Below are positions 22,669 to 32,925 of a stretch of DNA of 64,000 nucleotides, piece by piece. The notes beneath the pieces were generated by a model. It did no database searches. It saw nothing but the letters and a program-made list of their open reading frames with translations, and was not told where the DNA came from. The stretch is from Rhodohalobacter sp. SW132 (GTDB lineage Bacteria; Bacteroidota; Rhodothermia; Balneolales; Balneolaceae), in the NCBI RefSeq assembly GCF_003390325.1, contig NZ_QUOK01000001.1, forward strand, positions 186,001 to 250,000, read 5' to 3'. The position numbers and the translations under genes were made by a program. Numbering within the stretch: the first letter of the stretch is position 1; each line of letters starts with the position of its first letter.

Positions 22669-23526
22669 ATGGTACAACGTATTATCATATTTATAGTATT
22701 GGCAGTATTGCTGAACGGTTGGCATCCGGCAGGTAATGATGATGTTTCAGAGCTGGAACGGTGTAGTGATCTTGACGTTATCTACGAAGTAAAAGAGGGT
22801 GATAATCTCTATGAAATCAGCGCACATTATGGAAGCTACCTTTTTTGGGAGTCGATCTATGTGGCAAATGCAGATATACTAAACGATCCAAACCTGATTT
22901 TCCCCGGGCAGCAAATTCGGATACCATACAACATCGCGTACTATCAGCAGAATGAGCTGGCTATGAGTGATGTGCTTGAAAATCCCTTTTGTAAACTATC
23001 GGAGCTTCCTTACAGGCAGGTACAAAATCGATTTATAACACGCTATGATTTAGCATTTTTAGAGAATAAAGCTAATGCAGAACGTCATCAGGAGAAAGAA
23101 GAAGCAGAGAAAAAAGAGCAGGAGAGAATGGCAGAACTTCATGCAGAAGAACTGCAGAGAGAGACCAGGGTAAATCAAAGAGAAAGCAACCAGGAGCAGG
23201 TACAGAGAGAATCAGAGAGGCAGATGCTGATTGAGATCGACGGAATGGTGCACGACGAAACGCGTTCGAAGGTGGGCCGCGATTTCTACGATGTATTCTA
23301 TTCCCATTGGCAGTCACCGCCTGAAGCAGGCAACTTCACTATTCGGGTGGATGAACAGCCTTCACCAAACATGGGAACAACCATCATGGTAAAGGTGAAT
23401 CAAACGGAAACTTTCAAAATGAGGCTGCAGCCCCGTTATGAAATGATCCAGGAAGCCGGTAAATACGCGGTTCACCAAACATATATGCATCTGAAAAATA
23501 ACCCGCAAGGGACTTTAATCTACTAA
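22669..23526 (+). CDS. LysM-CsgE fusion, curli assembly factor-like
   Basis: 285 residues. An N-terminal hydrophobic export signal comes first, then a LysM domain (about 38-88, 'VKEGDNLYEISAHYGS' to 'LIFPGQQIRIP') that should bind peptidoglycan. A charged Glu/Gln/Arg coiled coil (about 131-188) leads to a C-terminal CsgE-like domain (about 187-285: 'IDGMVHDETRSKVGRDFYDVF', 'TIRVDEQPSPNMGTTIMVKV', 'AVHQTYMHLKN'). CsgE is the periplasmic adaptor that caps the CsgG curli pore and guides subunits to it. Here LysM and the coiled coil would tether that adaptor to the cell wall. It is the first gene of the curlin locus. The CsgE assignment is by motif similarity. Confidence 0.8.
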   Translation: MVQRIIIFIVLAVLLNGWHPAGNDDVSELERCSDLDVIYEVKEGDNLYEISAHYGSYLFWESIYVANADILNDPNLIFPGQQIRIPYNIAYYQQNELAMSDVLENPFCKLSELPYRQVQNRFITRYDLAFLENKANAERHQEKEEAEKKEQERMAELHAEELQRETRVNQRESNQEQVQRESERQMLIEIDGMVHDETRSKVGRDFYDVFYSHWQSPPEAGNFTIRVDEQPSPNMGTTIMVKVNQTETFKMRLQPRYEMIQEAGKYAVHQTYMHLKNNPQGTLIY

Positions 23527-23807
23527 AGCAAATGTACACAAGGTGTAAATGTCGCTATAGTAACAGCAGTTTATTGATGGCACTCCTGACCAGTGAGTCA
23601 TCGAATTACAGAACAGAAACCAGAACAAAACGTATGAAATCAGGCATTATGGTGTTTCCCTGGAATGGAGTACAGCGGGCGAGTTGAATAGGGTCGGTGT
23701 CAGTTAAAGGAATGATAAAGTATACGTAAGAGTGCTTCAGGTAAGATTTAGCAGTGAATTACAAAAAGAGAGAACAAATAGATAGAACTTAGGTTTCAGT
23801 AGCAAGA

Positions 23808-23836
23808 CAGGGAACGGATACGGTATCCGTTCCCTG
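23808..23836 (+). promoter_or_regulatory. Perfect 13-bp stem-loop in the leader of the first minor-curlin gene
   Basis: Arms CAGGGAACGGATA (23808-23820) and TATCCGTTCCCTG (23824-23836) pair perfectly around a 3-nt loop. No T-tract follows, so it is not a standard terminator. The Shine-Dalgarno AGGAG (23857-23861) of the next gene lies 20 nt downstream. It may stabilise or control the mRNA. Confidence 0.65.
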
Positions 23837-23856
23837 GCAGGAGAACATAAAACTTT

Positions 23857-23861
23857 AGGAG
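23857..23861 (+). promoter_or_regulatory. Ribosome binding site of minor-curlin paralogue 1
   Basis: AGGAG eight bases before the ATG at 23870, close after the 13-bp hairpin. It supports the chosen start. Confidence 0.6.
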
Positions 23862-23869
23862 TCAGACAA

Positions 23870-24430
23870 ATGAGACAATTATACATACTGTTTTTGGTAA
23901 CCCTTTTTATCACATGCAATGCCTTTGCGCAGACAGGGCAGCGGCCGGGTGAAGTATTTATCCAGCAGGCGAACTTTGATCATACGGAGGCAGCCCAACA
24001 GTTTACTAGTGATTTTACTGCACTTTTCGATATGAGTCTCGACGCCGTTGATTTGTTTGATGGCCGGACCAACACCGCATTCGTGAATTTGTATGGGAGT
24101 GATAACCAATCCAGTGTTACACAATCCGGCTGGGGAAATGTTGCCATGGTTAATATTCTGGGAGACAGGAACAGATCCGGTCTGCAGCAAAGGGGAAATA
24201 GTAATCGGTTTATCCTCAACCTGGAAGGCAGTGATGGTTTGGTTGATGGTATGCAGGCAGGAAAAAATAACTTTTTGCGAATGGACCTGATTGGAAATAC
24301 CCATAATCAAACATTCAGCCAGACCGGGGCAAATTTATCACTCCAGCTAATTGACAATGGCGGGGGCGGTGTACCCATGCAGATTGAACAGCGAGGCAAC
24401 GGCGCATCGGTCATTATCGAAAACTACTGA
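23870..24430 (+). CDS. Minor-curlin-like (CsgB-type) secreted protein, paralogue 1
   Basis: 186 residues. The signal peptide is cleaved near 'AFAQ'. A non-repeat N-terminal segment with the motif RPGEVFIQQANF comes first. About five degenerate curlin repeats follow with Q-x-G-x-x-N spacing ('VTQSGWGNVAMVNILGDRN', 'LQQRGNSNRF'), ending in 'IEQRGNGASVIIENY'. It shares its start and end motifs with the protein at 30511-31062. The curlin repeats are less regular than in the larger proteins nearby, so a nucleator or capping role like CsgB is a reasonable inference. AGGAG at 23857-23861 supports the start. Confidence 0.75.
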   Translation: MRQLYILFLVTLFITCNAFAQTGQRPGEVFIQQANFDHTEAAQQFTSDFTALFDMSLDAVDLFDGRTNTAFVNLYGSDNQSSVTQSGWGNVAMVNILGDRNRSGLQQRGNSNRFILNLEGSDGLVDGMQAGKNNFLRMDLIGNTHNQTFSQTGANLSLQLIDNGGGGVPMQIEQRGNGASVIIENY

Positions 24431-25305
24431 AGTAAATAGTTGATGTAATTTGTTGCTTCTTAATGGGGGGGCTCTCCAACATCGATCCTCGGATGAGGCC
24501 CCTGAATCATATACTAAAATCAGCACAACTCGATTTATTGATAACTCATCCGATGATCCAGCTCTCCGGAGGTATTCGGAAATCCGGGTCACTTTTCTTT
24601 TCGGTACTAACCTCTCTTCTCTGTCGAAAAGCATTTGGTTAATGAATTCCCAGAAACGTATTTGAAGGGTTCTGATCCTTTTTTGTAATTCCTTTAATAA
24701 CTCAGATTAAGAAGGCTTTGAAATACCCATCTGCCGGCTGGCTGCCCTCATTGAGATTTTTGAATACAGTCATCCACCGATTTGATTTTGCTAATCGCTG
24801 AAATTTGATTTTATAGTTGATATTAAGGTGTGTTTTGAATTCAGTTATTTTTATGTCATACATTTTATATACTATAGTTTTTAATATCATGATTAATTTC
24901 AGGCACATCTCAAAGTGATATTTTGGTTCCTGGTAAAACGGAAGGATTTGAATTAGAAACCGCACTTCTTTTCTAATTTTTGGAGCTGTCAAGCAGTTAA
25001 AAATCTATAACACACAGACGGCCATTCGTATTCGTTAGATTTTTTAATGCTCTTAAATAACTTATAAACAATAACTTAAGATTGTTATGAAAATTTTAAG
25101 GGTCAAACTATAAAGAAACGCTAATTATGATCAATGACAGCTTCTTCATTTCTTTGATGGAGCAAAGAAATCAATTGGTATGATTCTATGATGTACATAT
25201 TTAAAAATTGAATCTTTATTGATTTTCAAAAACAAATGTTACAAAGTGTCGGCAAGTTGGCTGCCGGCAAAGATTTAGAAAAACTACAGAATTCGGGATT
25301 AAACA
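24431..25305. other. 875-base gap inside the curlin locus
   Basis: No gene that I can support. The left part holds CGGATGAG (24490-24497) and CTCATCCG (24545-24552), which match an intergenic repeat at 11195-11225. A minus-strand frame of 96 codons (24702-24992) is AT-rich and has no recognisable motif. A hairpin TTTCTTTG/CAAAGAAA (25149-25156, 25163-25170) lies near the right end. CTTAAG/TTTAAG occur at 25075-25100. The right part probably carries the promoter for the main curlin genes. Confidence 0.4.
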
Positions 25306-26052
25306 ATGAAAATGTACACTCTCTCTATGCTTATCTGGCTCCTGGCAACAGCCGGGCTATTTGCCCAGGGCAATGATGCCATCATTGAGCAGGCCGGCGA
25401 TGATCATTCAGCTTCTATAGAGCAGGTTGGATCAACAAATAGTGCATTAGTTATCCAGGAAGTTGCCGGAAACGAGGCAATCATTCATCAGGAAGGATCA
25501 AACAGTGCGCAGTTGATTCAGTATGGTGTAGATAATCGCGCCGAAATCAACCAGTGGGCCGGTGGCCAGTCTGGAATTGAGGGAGCTTCTTCAGCTACAA
25601 TCGAGCAGGCGGGTGATGGAAATAACGTTGAAGTAAATCAATTTGGAAGCCATATCGCAGAGATCAGTCAGACAGGAGAAGGCAGCAATCAAATTAACCT
25701 GACACAGGCACAAGGTAATTCAACAGTTTCCTCTTTTGGTGAGGAATTCGGAAGCGGCGCTTTTGCGCTGCTGATGCAGCACGGTTTCAGCAATGAAATC
25801 ACGCTGGCGCAAAACGGCTCCCATTATGCTGAAATCACGCAGCATGGAAGCTATAACACTGCAGCTGTTACGCAGGATGGACTGGATCTCGGCAACTTTG
25901 CCGAAATCGAGCAGGATGGCATACAGAACAGCGCTTTAATTGAGCAGTTTGGCGCAGACAATGCCGCCATCATCCGACAATACGGTAACGGGCACTCCGC
26001 CCGCCTGGAGCAATACGGCAACGGCAATCGGGCCATCATTACTCAACAATAA
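25306..26052 (+). CDS. Curlin-repeat major amyloid-like subunit 1
   Basis: 248 residues. The signal peptide is cleaved near 'GLFAQG'. The rest is almost entirely curlin repeats, about eleven units of 18-23 residues with the CsgA-type pattern of Gln, Gly and Asn at fixed spacing ('IEQAGDDHSASIEQVG', 'IEQFGADNAAIIRQYGNGH', 'LEQYGNGNRAIITQQ'). Such repeats stack as beta-solenoids and polymerise into extracellular fibres in the curli system. The last repeats are the most regular. The mature chain has few charged residues and is rich in Ala, Ile, Gln and Asn. Confidence 0.85.
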   Translation: MKMYTLSMLIWLLATAGLFAQGNDAIIEQAGDDHSASIEQVGSTNSALVIQEVAGNEAIIHQEGSNSAQLIQYGVDNRAEINQWAGGQSGIEGASSATIEQAGDGNNVEVNQFGSHIAEISQTGEGSNQINLTQAQGNSTVSSFGEEFGSGAFALLMQHGFSNEITLAQNGSHYAEITQHGSYNTAAVTQDGLDLGNFAEIEQDGIQNSALIEQFGADNAAIIRQYGNGHSARLEQYGNGNRAIITQQ

Positions 26053-26064
26053 TGCAAATTTACA

Positions 26065-26082
26065 CTGAACCGAGAGGTTCAG
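26065..26082 (+). promoter_or_regulatory. Intercistronic stem-loop after curlin 1
   Basis: Perfect stem CTGAACC (26065-26071) and GGTTCAG (26076-26082) with the GNRA-type loop GAGA, 13 nt after the stop codon. It is followed by CTCAAATTA. No T-tract. It is one of a family of hairpins in this locus. Confidence 0.6.
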
Positions 26083-26129
26083 CTCAAATTAACAAACAAC
26101 AAATCGTACATAACAAAACACAGAGAACT

Positions 26130-26948
26130 ATGAAAACAATAAGCACATTTACACTCGCACTGTTCTTCGCAGCAGGAACCGCATTCGCACAAAGCAATGA
26201 TGCAACAGTTGATCAGGAAGGAAATAGCAACGATGCAACAATTGAACAGACCGGAAGCGGACAAGTTTCTGCCATCGATCAATCAGGATCTTCAAATACT
26301 GCATCATCTGTTCAGAATAGTACAAGCAACAGCAGTGAAATAAGTATAACACAAGTTGGCTTTTATAATACTGCTTCAGCTGACCATTCAGGTAGCGGAG
26401 AAATTACTCAGTATCAGGCTGGCCTGAATAACAGTGCAGTAGCGCGGGCTACATCTTCATCTGATGTAGAGCAGACTCAAATTGGATCCGGTAATGAGGC
26501 GTTAATTGCGGAAACAGGTTCCCGATTAAATCAAAATAGTTCAGTGGAGCAATATCAAGTGGGTTTTAACAACGAAGCTTCTCTGTCTATCTGGAGTGGG
26601 AATGGCCGTCATCTGGATATTGAACAAATTCAGGTTGGTAGCGGAAATGTAAGTGACATTTCAGATGTAAGCCATTCAAATGTACTTAGTACGAGACAGT
26701 ATGGGTTGAATAACAGTGCAACACTCGAAAGAGGAAGCAGTGCTTTTACCGGGCATACAGTTGACGTTCTTCAGCTTGGTGATGGCAACAGCGCAACATT
26801 TACAAGTAACGGACAACACAATAGTTACGCCGGAATTGAGCAGTTTGGACTCAGTAATATGGCTTCAATTGCACACGGCAGCGGAGATTTCGCAACTATT
26901 TCACAAGAAGGCTACAGCAACTCAGCTACAATCACACAAGGAAACTAA
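26130..26948 (+). CDS. Curlin-repeat amyloid-like subunit 2
   Basis: 272 residues from the ATG at 26130. The frame is open upstream, but the signal peptide 'MKTISTFTLALFFAAGTAFAQ' begins here. The mature part is curlin repeats rich in Ser, Asn, Gln and Gly ('IEQTGSGQVSAIDQSGSSNTAS', 'QIGSGNEALI', 'IEQFGLSNMASIAHG') with somewhat longer units than subunit 1. The signal-peptide coding sequence and part of the leader are nearly identical to those of subunit 3, so the two arose by duplication. It is predicted to be a secreted fibre subunit. Confidence 0.85.
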   Translation: MKTISTFTLALFFAAGTAFAQSNDATVDQEGNSNDATIEQTGSGQVSAIDQSGSSNTASSVQNSTSNSSEISITQVGFYNTASADHSGSGEITQYQAGLNNSAVARATSSSDVEQTQIGSGNEALIAETGSRLNQNSSVEQYQVGFNNEASLSIWSGNGRHLDIEQIQVGSGNVSDISDVSHSNVLSTRQYGLNNSATLERGSSAFTGHTVDVLQLGDGNSATFTSNGQHNSYAGIEQFGLSNMASIAHGSGDFATISQEGYSNSATITQGN

Positions 26949-26966
26949 ATCCTTTTGATGTCCGGA

Positions 26967-26989
26967 CGCCCGGTTCTAATTGCCGGGCG
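26967..26989 (+). promoter_or_regulatory. Intercistronic stem-loop after curlin 2
   Basis: Perfect 7-bp stem CGCCCGG (26967-26973) and CCGGGCG (26983-26989), 9-nt loop, 19 nt after the stop codon. No T-tract. Flanking bases TTTTGATGTC are shared with the hairpin after curlin 3. Confidence 0.65.
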
Positions 26990-27079
26990 GCTGAGACTCA
27001 AACGCCAGTATAAAAACAAGAAAAGTACCAGTTACATATCATAAATCAACAAATCGTACAACTCAAAACAAAAAGAATC

Positions 27080-27922
27080 ATGAAAACAATAAGCACATTT
27101 ACACTCGCACTGTTCTTCGCAGCAGGAACAGCATTCGCACAAAGTAATGACGCTTCAATTTCTCAAGTCGGCTCAGATAATGATGCTGATGTAACTCAGA
27201 CAGGCACTCATGAGGCGTCCGTTACACAAATTGGAGATTACAATAGCGCAACAGCTCTTCAGGTAGGAGCCGATACTGAAAGTTCTGTAACGCAAACCCA
27301 AACCGGAAATGAGAACAGTGCAACAGCATTGTACCTCGGACGATCGGGTGACTGGGATGGACGAAGCGGAGTCATAACCCAGATTCAAACTGGTGACAAT
27401 AATACCGCTTATGCTGTTGGCCGTGAAGGAGCAAATCTTAGCCAGGAACAGATCGGTAATTATAACCATGCCCAGATAGGCGACCCTACAGGCGAAAGCG
27501 GCAACCCAAATGGTATTCGACGAGTTATGAACGTCGACCAATATCAGGAAGGTGACTTCAATACAGCTTATGTAGAGCCTGGATTCAGATTCATCCGTGA
27601 TGGTGTTATCAATCAATCACAAATTGGTGATGGCAACCTCGCAGAAGCACTTGGCCTGACAAATGCAGCCCGAATTAATCAGTCACAGGTTGGTGATGAT
27701 AACATTTCTATTGTTGAGCAGGGAAATAGCAATTTTCATGCAAACACAACGCAAGAAGGCGATTTCAATGAAGCGTACATCATAACTGGCGGCCATTCAT
27801 TTAATGAAATCAGTCAGTTCGGTGATTCTAACTTCGGCTCAATTGAAACATCCAGCCACAGCAGTGGAGTGATTTCGCAAGATGGTGATTTCAACACAGC
27901 TACAATCACACAAAGTAACTAA
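27080..27922 (+). CDS. Curlin-repeat amyloid-like subunit 3
   Basis: 280 residues with the same 21-residue signal peptide as subunit 2. The curlin repeats are of two types: short regular ones ('ISQVGSDNDADVTQTGTHEASVT') and longer ones ('QSQIGDGNLAEALGLTNAARI', 'QSQVGDDNISIVEQGNSN'). The chain ends 'ISQDGDFNTATITQSN'. It is predicted to be a secreted amyloid subunit. It shares leader bases CAACAAATCGTACA (27047-27060) with subunit 2 (26097-26110). Confidence 0.85.
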   Translation: MKTISTFTLALFFAAGTAFAQSNDASISQVGSDNDADVTQTGTHEASVTQIGDYNSATALQVGADTESSVTQTQTGNENSATALYLGRSGDWDGRSGVITQIQTGDNNTAYAVGREGANLSQEQIGNYNHAQIGDPTGESGNPNGIRRVMNVDQYQEGDFNTAYVEPGFRFIRDGVINQSQIGDGNLAEALGLTNAARINQSQVGDDNISIVEQGNSNFHANTTQEGDFNEAYIITGGHSFNEISQFGDSNFGSIETSSHSSGVISQDGDFNTATITQSN

Positions 27923-27937
27923 ATCTTTTGATGTCAG

Positions 27938-27964
27938 GGCGCCTGGTTCAAATTACCGGGCGCC
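27938..27964 (+). promoter_or_regulatory. Intercistronic stem-loop after curlin 3
   Basis: 10-bp stem GGCGCCTGGT (27938-27947) and ACCGGGCGCC (27955-27964) with one G-U pair and a 7-nt loop, 15 nt after the stop codon. The bases before it and the CTCAAATTA after it repeat those of neighbouring hairpins. Confidence 0.65.
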
Positions 27965-28032
27965 ATTGGCTCAAATTACACAGAACAACAAGAGAAGTAC
28001 CTAAAACAAAAAAACGACTACAGAGGTTAATT

Positions 28033-29238
28033 ATGAATAAGTTTACCACACTATCATTTGCACTGCTTTTCGCGGCAGGAACCGCACTTGCGCAAAGCAA
28101 TGACGCTTCGATCGACCAAGTGGGCGATGATCACGATGCCATGATTTCCCAAACCGGATCTTTAAACGATGCACATGTTTTGCAAACGGCTGACGCCGGC
28201 AGGGAAGGCAGCGACGTTGGAACAGCTGATGTGACTCAGGATGGATCAGAAAACAGCGTAAATCTCCGTCAGAGAAACTTTTTTGGCAATAATGTTGCAA
28301 ACATCACGCAAGTTGGATCAGGCAACAGTGTGCAGGGAACAAGCGCCGGTTCAGCGTTTCTGCAGAATCACGGACTGAACATCATTGATGTGATGATGGA
28401 AGGAGATGATAATACGCTTTACAGCCTTCGTGGTGAAGCACAGAAAAATACCAACACTCTTCTGCTTGATATTCTTGGCGACGGTAACACGGTAGGACTC
28501 CTGCAAGAGCATGGATATGCAGATATATCTCTCACCGGATCTTTCAACGATGTTGTACTCGATCAGAAAGCGAACAACAACGCAAATCGTCAGACTGCCT
28601 ATGTGGATGTAACCGGAAGCGATAACCTGGTGGATGTTTCTCAGAGAGGACAAGCCGGAACAGCTGATATCACGCAAAATGGTGATGATAACACAGCTTT
28701 TGTACGTCAAAATGGTGTAGGAAACTCAGTTCTGATTGAGCAGGGTGTATACGGCGGTGCGACTGCAAGCATTGCAGACTTTACCCAAATTGGCGATGGC
28801 AACTACTTCGAAACCAAGCAGGTTCGTTCCGTTGATAACAGAGTGACCGGTACGCAGCTTGGAGATGATAACTACTACCGTGCAAGCGTTCGCGGCGAAG
28901 ACAATTCTGTAAGCATGGATGTTGCAGGCGATGAAAACCGCGGAAGCTGGGCAATCAGCTCACTCGGATGGCCACATCAGCCAACAGGAAACTCACTTAC
29001 TCTTGATGTAACCGGCAGCAATAACTACAGCACAGGAAGCATTGCCGGTGATAACAATACCGTAACCGTTGCACAGGACGGACTTGGTAACCGACTCGGA
29101 ACATCATGGTACACAAGCGATGGCGTAAGCATTGCAGGTGATGCCAACTCCGTATCGATCGGACAGTTTTCAGACTATAACACTGCTTCAGTTAGCGTAG
29201 CAGGAAACAGCAATACAGCGACCATTACCCAGAACTAA
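28033..29238 (+). CDS. Curlin-repeat amyloid-like subunit 4 (largest)
   Basis: 401 residues from the ATG at 28033, supported by AGAGG at 28022-28026 and the signal peptide 'MNKFTTLSFALLFAAGTALAQ'. The frame is open upstream, but that extension has no export signal. The repeats are curlin-like but diverse: 'IDQVGDDHDAMISQTGSLNDA' at the start, a middle region with Asp/Asn-rich units ('LDILGDGNTVGLLQEHG', 'VDVTGSDNLVDVSQRG') and a Gly/Asn-rich end ('VAGNSNTATITQN'). It is the longest secreted curlin here and probably forms a longer beta-solenoid than CsgA. Confidence 0.83.
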   Translation: MNKFTTLSFALLFAAGTALAQSNDASIDQVGDDHDAMISQTGSLNDAHVLQTADAGREGSDVGTADVTQDGSENSVNLRQRNFFGNNVANITQVGSGNSVQGTSAGSAFLQNHGLNIIDVMMEGDDNTLYSLRGEAQKNTNTLLLDILGDGNTVGLLQEHGYADISLTGSFNDVVLDQKANNNANRQTAYVDVTGSDNLVDVSQRGQAGTADITQNGDDNTAFVRQNGVGNSVLIEQGVYGGATASIADFTQIGDGNYFETKQVRSVDNRVTGTQLGDDNYYRASVRGEDNSVSMDVAGDENRGSWAISSLGWPHQPTGNSLTLDVTGSNNYSTGSIAGDNNTVTVAQDGLGNRLGTSWYTSDGVSIAGDANSVSIGQFSDYNTASVSVAGNSNTATITQN

Positions 29239-29263
29239 ATTTGTTCTGAGTGTACATTTGCAA

Positions 29264-29291
29264 CCCTGCACGGTTTGAACGCCGTGTGGGG
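29264..29291 (+). promoter_or_regulatory. Intercistronic stem-loop after curlin 4
   Basis: 10-bp stem CCCTGCACGG (29264-29273) and CCGTGTGGGG (29282-29291) with two G-U pairs and an 8-nt loop, 25 nt after the stop codon. Not followed by a strong T-tract. Confidence 0.55.
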
Positions 29292-29428
29292 GATTTGTTT
29301 ATCCAAATAAATTAAGAATGAAAAAGCTAATACATAACCGGAGGAATTGAACCGGGATGTTGAGGCAGATCATCAATAAAAAACACAGAGATTAAAAAAC
29401 TGTTTTTTTGCTCAGGTCTAATCTATAA

Positions 29429-30442
29429 ATGACTACCAAAGAGTTCCATATCGCCCTTCTGACCATTTTTCTGATCGTTGCAGGCGTGCTTACTCATCAC
29501 CTGCTGAACGACGGAAATAATGCCTCTTATTTTCAGTTTGAGTTACCGAAATTCGGTGAGATTTCTTCAAATCAAACGGAAAAGGCCCCATCTGGAATAG
29601 GCACACCAATCTTTCGGGCACCATTTATCGGCGGGGAAAAGGATCAGAAAAGAGATACACATCCACTTTCGTTTGATGAAGAGCAGATTTTAAAAACAGA
29701 GCCGGATCAGGGTAAAGATGAAGAAAAACAAAATGTGGAAAGAGAACAGGTTGAAAATCAACAAGTGAGCCCACCAGAAGATGAGAGTGAAAATAAGGTA
29801 AAACCCACATCTGCCCGTTTATTCATTCCGTTTACCCGGTTAACGGAGAGCTACCCCTGGGTAAACAAAGGCTCGGCTTTACAAAAATTAGAAAGTGCCG
29901 ATAAGAGAGATGAAGCGGGGTTTGGTTCCCGTATTGACGTATTGACCGGGCAACAGGAACTGAGTCGTTCTCATGTGAGGATTCTCCAGATAAGCGATGA
30001 AAATACCGCGGATGTAAGGAGTGAGAACCGCGATAATTATGTGGAGATCATTCAGTCGGGAGATTCCGGAAATGTGGTGCAACTGACGCAAAGTGCATCC
30101 GGAAATACCGCTCAAATCACTCAGCAAGGTTATGGAAACAGGCTTGGAAGTAATAAAACCCAGTGGATCAACCCGAGAATTACCACGGAGCAGATCAGGG
30201 ATTCCAGGCTTGATATTTCTCAAGCCGGTGATTTTAACGCAGCCGATTTCATACAGGATGGATCCAAAGTGCAATCCCAACAGTTCGGTGTGATGAATAC
30301 AGTGATTGCCGGCCAAATACAGAGCACAGCACATATTTCTCAAAATGGTGATTTTAACACGACAACCCTGGAGCAGAATAACGGATCAGCTGATATCAAT
30401 CAGGAAGGAACTGGTAACCTGATCACGCTCCGCCAGCTCTGA
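29429..30442 (+). CDS. Membrane-anchored protein with C-terminal curlin repeats
   Basis: 337 residues. An uncleaved-looking N-terminal transmembrane segment (residues 7-26, 'HIALLTIFLIVAGVLTHHLL') is followed by a low-complexity acidic/Lys/Gln linker (about 75-135). The C-terminal half holds about seven curlin-like units ('VRILQISDENTADV', 'VQLTQSASGNTAQITQQGYGN', 'ISQNGDFNTTTLEQNNG', 'INQEGTGNLITLRQL'). Unlike the others it has no cleavable Ala-Gln signal, so it may anchor or template fibres from the inner membrane. I know of no named family with this exact layout. The repeat assignment is clear; the role is inferred. Confidence 0.7.
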   Translation: MTTKEFHIALLTIFLIVAGVLTHHLLNDGNNASYFQFELPKFGEISSNQTEKAPSGIGTPIFRAPFIGGEKDQKRDTHPLSFDEEQILKTEPDQGKDEEKQNVEREQVENQQVSPPEDESENKVKPTSARLFIPFTRLTESYPWVNKGSALQKLESADKRDEAGFGSRIDVLTGQQELSRSHVRILQISDENTADVRSENRDNYVEIIQSGDSGNVVQLTQSASGNTAQITQQGYGNRLGSNKTQWINPRITTEQIRDSRLDISQAGDFNAADFIQDGSKVQSQQFGVMNTVIAGQIQSTAHISQNGDFNTTTLEQNNGSADINQEGTGNLITLRQL

Positions 30443-30510
30443 GATCAACCGGTCATACGTTCGTTTATCAATCTTTTGGATTGAGCAAACCTAAAACGAA
30501 TGAAACCGGA

Positions 30511-31062
30511 ATGAAAATATTCATATGGATCGCTCTTTTACTGGCTGCAGGCCTTCCGGCCGCAATTGCACAGACCCATCAAAATCCGGGCGAAGTATTT
30601 ATCGAACAGGCAGCATTTAATCATAATGATGCAGTCGTTCAGTTTACCGGAGAGTTCAGCCATCTATTTGAACCAGAAGAGGAGTTTTCGGCCAGTTTCA
30701 GTGATGGGGATCACCACGCAAGTGTTTTGCAATCGGGAAAAGGAAATCTGACTCTTCTGAATCAAATCGGATTTAATAATCGGACTATACTAAATCTGAT
30801 TGGTGCCGATAATGTAGCGGGGGTTGTTCAGAATGGCGATAACAACCAGGCTGCAGTAAGATGGGTTGGATCGGCGAATGAGTTTGAATATCTTCAACTC
30901 GGCGATTTCAACCGGATGGAAGTACAGCAGTCTGGATCGGGGGTTCGTCAGCGTTTTGAGCAGATTGGCAGCAATCATGCCCTGCAGGTGATCGGCCGGG
31001 GTATCCCGCTGAACATTTCACAGTTCGGCAATGGAGCTTCTGCAGTGGTCGAAACGTATTAA
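30511..31062 (+). CDS. Minor-curlin-like (CsgB-type) secreted protein, paralogue 2
   Basis: 183 residues from the ATG at 30511, where the signal peptide begins ('MKIFIWIALLLAAGLPAAIAQ'). An in-frame TTG lies 30 nt upstream. The mature N terminus NPGEVFIEQAAFNH and the end 'ISQFGNGASAVVETY' match paralogue 1 at 23870. Between them are about five curlin-like units ('VLQSGKGNLTLLNQIGFNN', 'VVQNGDNNQAAVRWVG'). It lies 68 nt after the membrane-anchored curlin gene. The pair of paralogues near the two ends of the locus suggests nucleator or capping subunits. Confidence 0.75.
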   Translation: MKIFIWIALLLAAGLPAAIAQTHQNPGEVFIEQAAFNHNDAVVQFTGEFSHLFEPEEEFSASFSDGDHHASVLQSGKGNLTLLNQIGFNNRTILNLIGADNVAGVVQNGDNNQAAVRWVGSANEFEYLQLGDFNRMEVQQSGSGVRQRFEQIGSNHALQVIGRGIPLNISQFGNGASAVVETY

Positions 31063-31131
31063 AGTAGAGCAAACAGAGCGCCTGTTACATCAGAAAAAGT
31101 TTACCCATAACATTTCATTACAGAAGAAATT

Positions 31132-31782
31132 ATGAAGTCACGAATTGTATTTTATCTGACAATGCTTGCCGCATCGGGATTGATTTTCGGATCGTGCGCA
31201 AAAGAGTCGGTTGAAGCTGAATCCTTTGGCGATATTGATGGCATTGTCATCAACAGTGAGACTGAGACGGGGCTGGGTACTGTAAATATTACAACCACAC
31301 CGGCATCAAACGCAATTTTTACTGAGAGCGACGGCACGTTTACTATTCAAAATGTTCCCACAGGAAACTACACCATCCAGGCGCGTAAAAAAGATTACAG
31401 TAATGCATCAGTGAGCGTATCTGTCCGTGACGGGCAAACAGCCGTTGCCAAAATTTTGATGAACCCCGTGGACGAAGATGAAGATTCCACTGCCACAACC
31501 GATGACTTTCGTGCTGAAATTACAGCCTGGTTTAATGATGTGGATGGCGATTCAACTCACGTGGATGTGAATTACCGAGTAACCAACACAAGCGAAGCTG
31601 CCGATATCGAAGAGTATGAGGTCTATTTTGAAATTCTTACCGTGAGCGGAACCAGTTATTTCTTTGATGTCTCCGGCGAAACACTGCGTGCCGGTCAAAG
31701 TCGTAATGGTGAGCACAGACACTATATCAGAAATGAAGAGGCAACAGATGTAATTATCAATGATGTGTGGATTCTTCAGTAA
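31132..31782 (+). CDS. Lipoprotein with carboxypeptidase-regulatory-like domain
   Basis: 216 residues. The SPII signal has a Cys at 22 ('LIFGSCAKES'). Residues about 32-112 form a carboxypeptidase-regulatory-like beta sandwich ('IDGIVINSETETGLGTVNI', 'FTIQNVPTGNYTIQARKKDY'). Residues 122-216 form a second beta domain ('VDVNYRVTNTSEAADIEEYEV', 'RAGQSRNGEHRHYI') resembling FxLyD-type folds. It lies 69 nt after minor-curlin paralogue 2 on the same strand, so it may be the last gene of the curlin locus. A function in fibre assembly or anchoring is only a guess from position. Confidence 0.7.
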   Translation: MKSRIVFYLTMLAASGLIFGSCAKESVEAESFGDIDGIVINSETETGLGTVNITTTPASNAIFTESDGTFTIQNVPTGNYTIQARKKDYSNASVSVSVRDGQTAVAKILMNPVDEDEDSTATTDDFRAEITAWFNDVDGDSTHVDVNYRVTNTSEAADIEEYEVYFEILTVSGTSYFFDVSGETLRAGQSRNGEHRHYIRNEEATDVIINDVWILQ

Positions 31783-31822: not shown

Positions 31823-32740
31823 TCATCCGGCCTGTTTCTTAAGCTGATACTGTTTAGGTGTGGTTCCGGTATGCTCTTTGAACAGTTTTATAAAATGGCT
31901 CAGGCTGGAATATCCCAGCTTAAAGCTCACGTCGGTCACGTTCAGATCTTTATTCCGGAGCAATTTGCACGCTTTTTTCACTCTCTCCCTGTTGATATAC
32001 TCCACCGGACTGATCCCAAACTCGTTATTGAAATAGCGATAAAACGAAGCCTTACTCATGCAGGCGATATCAGCCAGTTTATTGATTGAGATTGGCCGGT
32101 CCAGGTTGTTTTTGATAAACTCCACGGCAGAAGCCAGCCCGCTTTGTGTAACATGCTTCCGGTAATTTTTCAAAAGCAGGTTTCTCGATTCGGTCTGCAG
32201 CATGTGAACAATCAGTTCGGCCGTATTCATCTCCACCAGAAGATCTTTTTGATTGTGCTCCTCTGTAAAAATGTGAAACAGCTTTCGGATCAGCAGATCA
32301 ACAGATTCTGTATTGGAAAAATGGACAGAAGCTGATGCGTCATACTCCCACTCACCGGATGTTTTTGTACGCGGCATCCGGTCGTTCATCCGGGCAACGA
32401 TCTCATCAATCCGCTCCAGGGGAAGCTCAACGGTGATGCATTTTGTGGGCTGATTTAACTTCGCATCCGGAAAATCGATGTAGATCGTCGAATCGGGAGG
32501 CAGTACCAGCGATTCACTAGGCACAAACTCAAAAGGGGTTTCATCGCCCGAGTGGATCACCTTCTTGCCGGAAATCATACCGCAATACATCGGGCTGTCT
32601 GATTTCAGTTCCACCCTACTCGCTTCCTGATACGTATCATAAACCGAAAAGACGGCATCCCTTCCCGCATAGCTGGTCCGGTTTTCAACCAGTTGCCGGG
32701 GCGGCTTTTCTCTGTTTTGTACCAGGGATTGATTAATCAT
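31823..32740 (-). CDS. AraC-family transcriptional regulator
   Basis: 305 residues from the ATG at 32740; a GTG 39 nt upstream is a less likely start. The N-terminal half is a cupin-like AraC_N ligand domain ('PSESLVLPPDSTIYIDFPDAKL'). The C-terminal 100 residues are a double helix-turn-helix ('SINKLADIACMSKASFYRYF' and 'NVTDVSFKLGYSSLSHFIKLF'). It is divergent from the aldehyde dehydrogenase and DUF779 genes and is probably their activator, sensing an aldehyde or alcohol-derived signal. That target is inferred from position. Confidence 0.88.
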   Translation of the reverse strand: MINQSLVQNREKPPRQLVENRTSYAGRDAVFSVYDTYQEASRVELKSDSPMYCGMISGKKVIHSGDETPFEFVPSESLVLPPDSTIYIDFPDAKLNQPTKCITVELPLERIDEIVARMNDRMPRTKTSGEWEYDASASVHFSNTESVDLLIRKLFHIFTEEHNQKDLLVEMNTAELIVHMLQTESRNLLLKNYRKHVTQSGLASAVEFIKNNLDRPISINKLADIACMSKASFYRYFNNEFGISPVEYINRERVKKACKLLRNKDLNVTDVSFKLGYSSLSHFIKLFKEHTGTTPKQYQLKKQAG

Positions 32741-32925
32741 GGCAGAATGGATCTGATTACCGTACAACCGGCGCTGCACCGTTTTTTAGTATAGATAATG
32801 AACATATCGAAACCAAATTGAGACGATAGCGCAATTTTCTGAGAGTATAGACCAAGATTGGAAGCGCTTTTTTATGCATCATTGAGTACAAATAACTAAG
32901 TAACTTAATTTAATGGAGACTTAAA

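Follow-up and report, generated by a model that had tools for sequence, protein, structure and literature searches.

How do the subunits of a curli-like amyloid reach the cell surface if their genes stand apart from those for the export pore? This question is raised by positions 22669-31782 of a 64,000-nucleotide stretch of the Rhodohalobacter sp. SW132 genome (hereafter the window), which corresponds to C1:186001-250000 of an assembly of 5.08 Mb in 45 contigs that is 98% complete with a contamination estimate of 0.07. Nine intact plus-strand open reading frames (ORFs) are found there, encoding one CsgE, seven curlin-repeat proteins and one lipoprotein; this gene set, put forward in the initial annotation, is borne out by Pfam matches. 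The same annotation described the locus as one without CsgG or CsgF nearby, which holds locally but not for the genome: a whole-genome search yielded 13 curlin-repeat proteins, three CsgE, one CsgF (3.3e-36) and one CsgG (2.7e-64), the latter two encoded at C1:38.2-40.0 kb. A pore-less amyloid locus was therefore rejected, and a genome devoid of CsgG, which the annotation had named as evidence against its own reading, is not what we found, because CsgG and CsgF are both present.

Together with a further csgE, the two pore genes form a csgE-csgF-csgG hub at C1:37.4-40.0 kb, ∼169 kb upstream of the gene island in the window. The hub CsgG matches the solved E. coli CsgG across the pore domain (6e-60) and is an ordinary member of its family clade, adjoining the CsgG of a relative (G262) in the tree. 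No curlin genes were detected from 7 kb before to 8 kb after the hub, and the genome contains no match to PF10610, the family of CsgC. The curlin genes reside in three islands, none of which holds CsgF or CsgG; besides the one in the window, these are:

Island 2, C1:1093.5-1098.1 kb: LysM-CsgE, three CsgA-like proteins and one CsgB-like protein.
Island 3, C9:27.6-30.1 kb: two large curlins, without CsgE.

No ORF of the islands is disrupted, and the encoded proteins show signal peptides and regular repeats. Collectively, these data demonstrate a real and intact curli (type VIII, nucleation-precipitation) system with a split operon.

For comparison, 33 csg loci of relatives and 80 named loci were annotated with purpose-built profiles; the nearest named relatives are Balneolaceae/Balneolales. 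We regard the split as the derived state because relatives hold the same genes contiguously and csgE is accompanied by csgF at 79 of the 80 named loci. Curli genes occur in 27 of the 129 genomes of the order, and the numbers of CsgE and CsgF are equal in 25 of these 27. CsgE outnumbers CsgF only in the present genome (3:1) and in G327, the Balneolaceae metagenome-assembled genome coassembly_bin.34 (2:1). The excess stems in both from modules of LysM-CsgE, curlin and CsgB that lack F and G; the satellite of G327 (L088/L133) comprises a LysM-CsgE, one curlin and one CsgB-like protein. Comparison of the island flanks with the relatives' operons revealed no useful synteny.

Since the assembly is a draft of 45 contigs, a chimera or contamination might have merged two genomes. 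We consider this very improbable: the hub, the window island and island 2 all lie on one 1.1-Mb contig, the contamination estimate is 0.07, trees assign CsgG and both LysM-CsgE proteins to the same family, and G327 carries a similar satellite. It is also quite unlikely that the islands are disused relics of a broken operon. The disappearance of csgF and csgG from the islands would fit such decay, as would the absence of curli genes from about four fifths of the order's genomes, which indicates that the system was often lost or never gained; however, the reading frames, signal peptides and repeats are preserved, the CsgE proteins of the window and island 2 are fully conserved, and curlins 2 and 3 of the window arose by tandem duplication.

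Instead, the islands probably export their products via the single CsgG/CsgF pore of the hub, with the help of a peptidoglycan-tethered CsgE. By analogy with E. coli curli, Sec would carry the subunits out of the cytoplasm, and CsgE would keep them unfolded in the periplasm and act as the gate. Curlins of the islands would then pass one outer-membrane CsgG pore with CsgF, encoded ∼169 kb away; outside the cell, CsgB-like proteins would seed the CsgA-like proteins, which may fold as β-solenoids and stack into fibres. Nucleation by CsgF and CsgB is likewise carried over from E. coli. E. coli CsgE caps the CsgG nonamer on its periplasmic side and delivers CsgA (PMC6050966). Judging from the domain, LysM would tie CsgE to peptidoglycan and so position this cap beside CsgG, beneath the outer membrane. 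The arrangement suggests that the clusters bring their own CsgE adaptor to a shared export pore. Three points weigh against export through the hub: in a draft of 98% completeness a second csgFG pair could lie in a gap, the hub CsgE could be the sole CsgE that pairs with the hub CsgG, and the satellite of G327 begins ∼400 bases from a contig end.

The island in the window comprises the following features, all on the plus strand:

22669-23526, plus: LysM-CsgE, with a signal peptide, LysM at residues 39-86, a charged linker and the CsgE domain at residues 190-276 (Pfam LysM 2.6e-7, CsgE 5.2e-20).
23870-24430, plus: CsgB-like minor curlin 1 of 186 residues, 'satellite' type, C-terminus ...GASVIIENY (Curlin_rpt 1.2e-5).
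25306-26052, plus: CsgA-like curlin 1 of 248 residues, a signal peptide followed by repeats (Curlin_rpt 1e-34, 8 stretches).
26130-26948, plus: CsgA-like curlin 2 of 272 residues (Curlin_rpt 1.7e-26).
27080-27922, plus: CsgA-like curlin 3 of 280 residues (Curlin_rpt 3.6e-23).
28033-29238, plus: CsgA-like curlin 4 of 401 residues (Curlin_rpt 4e-29).
29429-30442, plus: membrane-anchored curlin, with an N-terminal helix (3-27), a disordered linker of ∼150 residues and ∼5 C-terminal curlin repeats (Curlin_rpt 2.3e-10).
30511-31062, plus: CsgB-like minor curlin 2 of 183 residues (Curlin_rpt 1.1e-7).
31132-31782, plus: lipoprotein with a CarboxypepD_reg-like domain (Pfam 4.5e-11).
26949-27079, 27923-28032 and 29239-29340, plus: intergenic hairpins 3' of curlins 2, 3 and 4 (RNA fold z-scores -2.9, -3.9 and -3.4, respectively).

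The starts at 26130 and 28033 were taken at the signal peptides in preference to those of the longest ORFs. A gap of 875 bases (24431-25305) splits csgE-csgB1 from the remaining genes. The 5' ends, 3' ends and intergenic sequences of curlins 2 and 3 are 80-85% alike while their middles differ, and because of these shared ends and flanks we assign the pair to a tandem duplication. Hairpins after csgA-like genes could possibly set subunit ratios via mRNA stability. Scans for sigma-70 and Bacteroidota-type promoters gave no matches above chance. As a candidate regulator we discarded the AraC-type gene at 31823-32779, which is convergent and adjoins an aldehyde dehydrogenase gene. The lipoprotein is the only good copy in the genome, the next best match being at 1.0e-5.

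The curlin-like nature of the repeats, proposed in the initial annotation, was confirmed by hidden Markov model search: each of the seven repeat proteins exceeded the curated Curlin_rpt cut-off, with E-values between 1e-34 and 1.2e-5, far beyond chance. NCBIfam csg models also match proteins of the window, with scores under their cut-offs. Signal peptides can be read from six of the seven curlin-repeat proteins; in the remaining one, an anchor helix with no evident cleavage site occupies the N-terminus. Curli-type repeats and secretion signals are supported, as is a repetitive all-β model for one subunit. This AlphaFold2 model, of the 401-residue curlin, is regular and repetitive (predicted local distance difference test, pLDDT, 78; predicted template modelling score 0.77). 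Its top Foldseek matches are mostly β-helices, none of them significant, with the curli subunit 8c50, solved by cryo-electron microscopy, at E 0.35; the 248-residue curlin matches 8c50 in sequence at 2.3e-24 (phmmer). According to PMC10192328, shallow alignments often yield right-handed solenoid models of this left-handed fold, and the non-significant Foldseek match may therefore reflect a wrong-handed model built from a shallow alignment. In the anchored curlin, the helix at 3-27 was modelled at pLDDT ∼80, the linker had low confidence and the repeats gave no confident model. Net charge is negative in all 13 curlin-repeat proteins (-8 to -39), which would suit a halophile.

One could argue from the general β-helices among the structural matches, and from the fact that fibre formation follows from the family alone, that the repeat proteins are secreted β-solenoid surface proteins, such as adhesins, that do not polymerize. 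Strong curlin-repeat matches, accompanying CsgB-like proteins and the presence of CsgE, CsgF and CsgG in the same genome make this improbable. For the amyloid itself, a composite fibre, as envisaged in the initial annotation, and several fibre types would both be compatible with our analysis, which separates neither from the other.

The more unusual part of the locus had been overlooked: LysM on CsgE, the multiplication of CsgE and the two further islands. The profile of the window CsgE matches the E. coli CsgE structure 2na4 (8.2e-14) as well as solved LysM structures. LysM is N-terminal on the window and island-2 CsgE; the hub CsgE is without it. By Pfam, LysM is present on 14 of 35 CsgE proteins of the phylum sample, and a profile derived from their LysM portions detected it in 15 of the 80 named loci, all Balneolales-type records; within the material examined, LysM-CsgE was seen only in Balneolales. 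A literature search, with most subscription papers outside its coverage, found no paper treating CsgE and LysM together. LysM-CsgE is also encoded in unbroken csgEFG operons of relatives, and because it occurs there alongside a normal csgF and csgG, it is compatible with the usual pore. In L137 (G303), the LysM-CsgE gene is broken by a stop codon into two ORFs (1568-2419). CsgE open frames of 455-519 residues in G377, G378, G381 and G382, from another family of the order, suggest more N-terminal fusions.

In the CsgE tree, the window and island-2 proteins fall together, on short branches beside the CsgE of the G262 operon. They are close paralogues, and both keep 22 of 22 conserved CsgE columns, from which we conclude that the window CsgE is under constraint. 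The hub CsgE departs at 6 of these 22 columns (other members at 3 or fewer) and ends in a branch of 1.55, compared with ∼0.1-0.6 for most family members and 0.9 for one; its exact position is unsure because of long branches. It has no close relative elsewhere in the family, the best matches having ∼30-36% identity. In this genome, CsgE genes of ordinary appearance accompany subunit genes, and the odd copy is the one beside the pore. Minor curlin 1 of the window clusters with its CsgB-like counterparts from island 2 and the G327 satellite (support 85/94).

One CsgG with three CsgE, two of them beside their own subunits, amounts to a natural experiment on cargo selection by CsgE; the rule elsewhere in the systems examined is one CsgE per CsgF. 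CsgE is called a secretion specificity factor in the title of Nenninger et al. 2011, as cited in PMC4838910, and the locus is of note chiefly because this role becomes testable. The LysM fusion in turn suggests a way of positioning the periplasmic cap beneath the pore. We tentatively propose that a single curli pore takes its programme from CsgE proteins that are exchangeable and tethered to peptidoglycan: each island's CsgE might admit its own curlins, so that the cell switches between fibre types, with the diverged LysM-less hub CsgE possibly serving another role, for instance as a default plug. Selection of cargo by the CsgE copies is attractive, but higher dosage or separate control of the islands would account for the data about equally well. 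Quite possibly, then, the CsgE copies are interchangeable and confer no specificity, and one mixed (composite) fibre emerges; this alternative opposes specificity and leaves the shared pore in place. It agrees with the 67% identity of the window and island-2 copies in the CsgE domain, with their complete set of conserved columns and with the likeness of curlin repeats across the islands. It accords less well with the satellites of two genomes, in which CsgE stays with the subunit genes rather than with csgFG, and plain dosage would not predict a strongly diverged hub copy devoid of LysM.

The proposed export of the islands' products through the shared hub pore can be set against what is usual in the group. 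Most of the complete operons of relatives hold at least two curlins, with a maximum of seven; the 'expanded' locus of the initial annotation is therefore expanded relative to E. coli, but not an unusual trait. The lipoprotein stands beside csg genes in 59 of the 80 named loci. The subunit number, lipoprotein, CsgB-like protein and anchored curlin recur in relatives' operons and so do not set this genome apart. The layout of the anchored curlin (helix, long linker, C-terminal repeats) is also seen in L096, L099, L100 and L101, and a similar one in the Ignavibacteriales locus L167. A C-terminal extension of ∼195 residues resembling an OmpA-like β-barrel, absent from E. coli CsgG, is present on the CsgG of L026 (9422-10015) and of 14 relatives (PF13505 in 11 of the 15, best 6.1e-10). 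Four of 35 relatives' CsgE proteins contain a stretch that matches CsgC (PF10610, best 4.5e-5), a possible CsgC-CsgE fusion in a group described as being without csgC; judged from the N-terminal layout, they probably lie within L109-L117.

Compared with the curli system of E. coli (csgBAC / csgDEFG), the present one is alike in curlin repeats, CsgE, CsgF and CsgG. It differs in its 13 curlin-repeat proteins, encoded in three islands far from csgFG, in the LysM on CsgE, in the extra lipoprotein and membrane-anchored curlin, and in having no CsgC, a protein that is not defining for the wider family and, according to PMC3521004, is confined to Enterobacteriales and Aeromonadales. The usual, though not strictly defining, curli layout places subunit genes beside csgEFG, and this genome departs from it. 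High subunit numbers have precedents: Dueholm et al. 2012 (PMC3521004) report up to six csgA/B per genome and additional operons, and Sleutel et al. 2023 (PMC10192328) as many as 30 copies of CsgA in a single genome. As here, the extra csgA/B operons of Spirosoma and Rhodopseudomonas often lie away from the main operon (PMC3521004); in neither paper, as far as its accessible text goes, is an extra CsgE travelling with extra curlins or a LysM-CsgE described. Closer at hand, the Bacteroidota/Balneolota operons, for example those of Fodinibius salsisoli (L141) and Aliifodinibius salipaludis (L140), contain the same genes, including LysM-CsgE and the lipoprotein; many also have a CsgB-like protein, and some a membrane-anchored curlin. 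These operons are contiguous, whereas the present system consists of a hub and islands with three CsgE. Its counterpart is G327 (L129 + L133), with one LysM-csgE-F-G operon and one LysM-CsgE/curlin/CsgB satellite without F and G, which differs in that the satellite is single and the hub CsgE retains its LysM.

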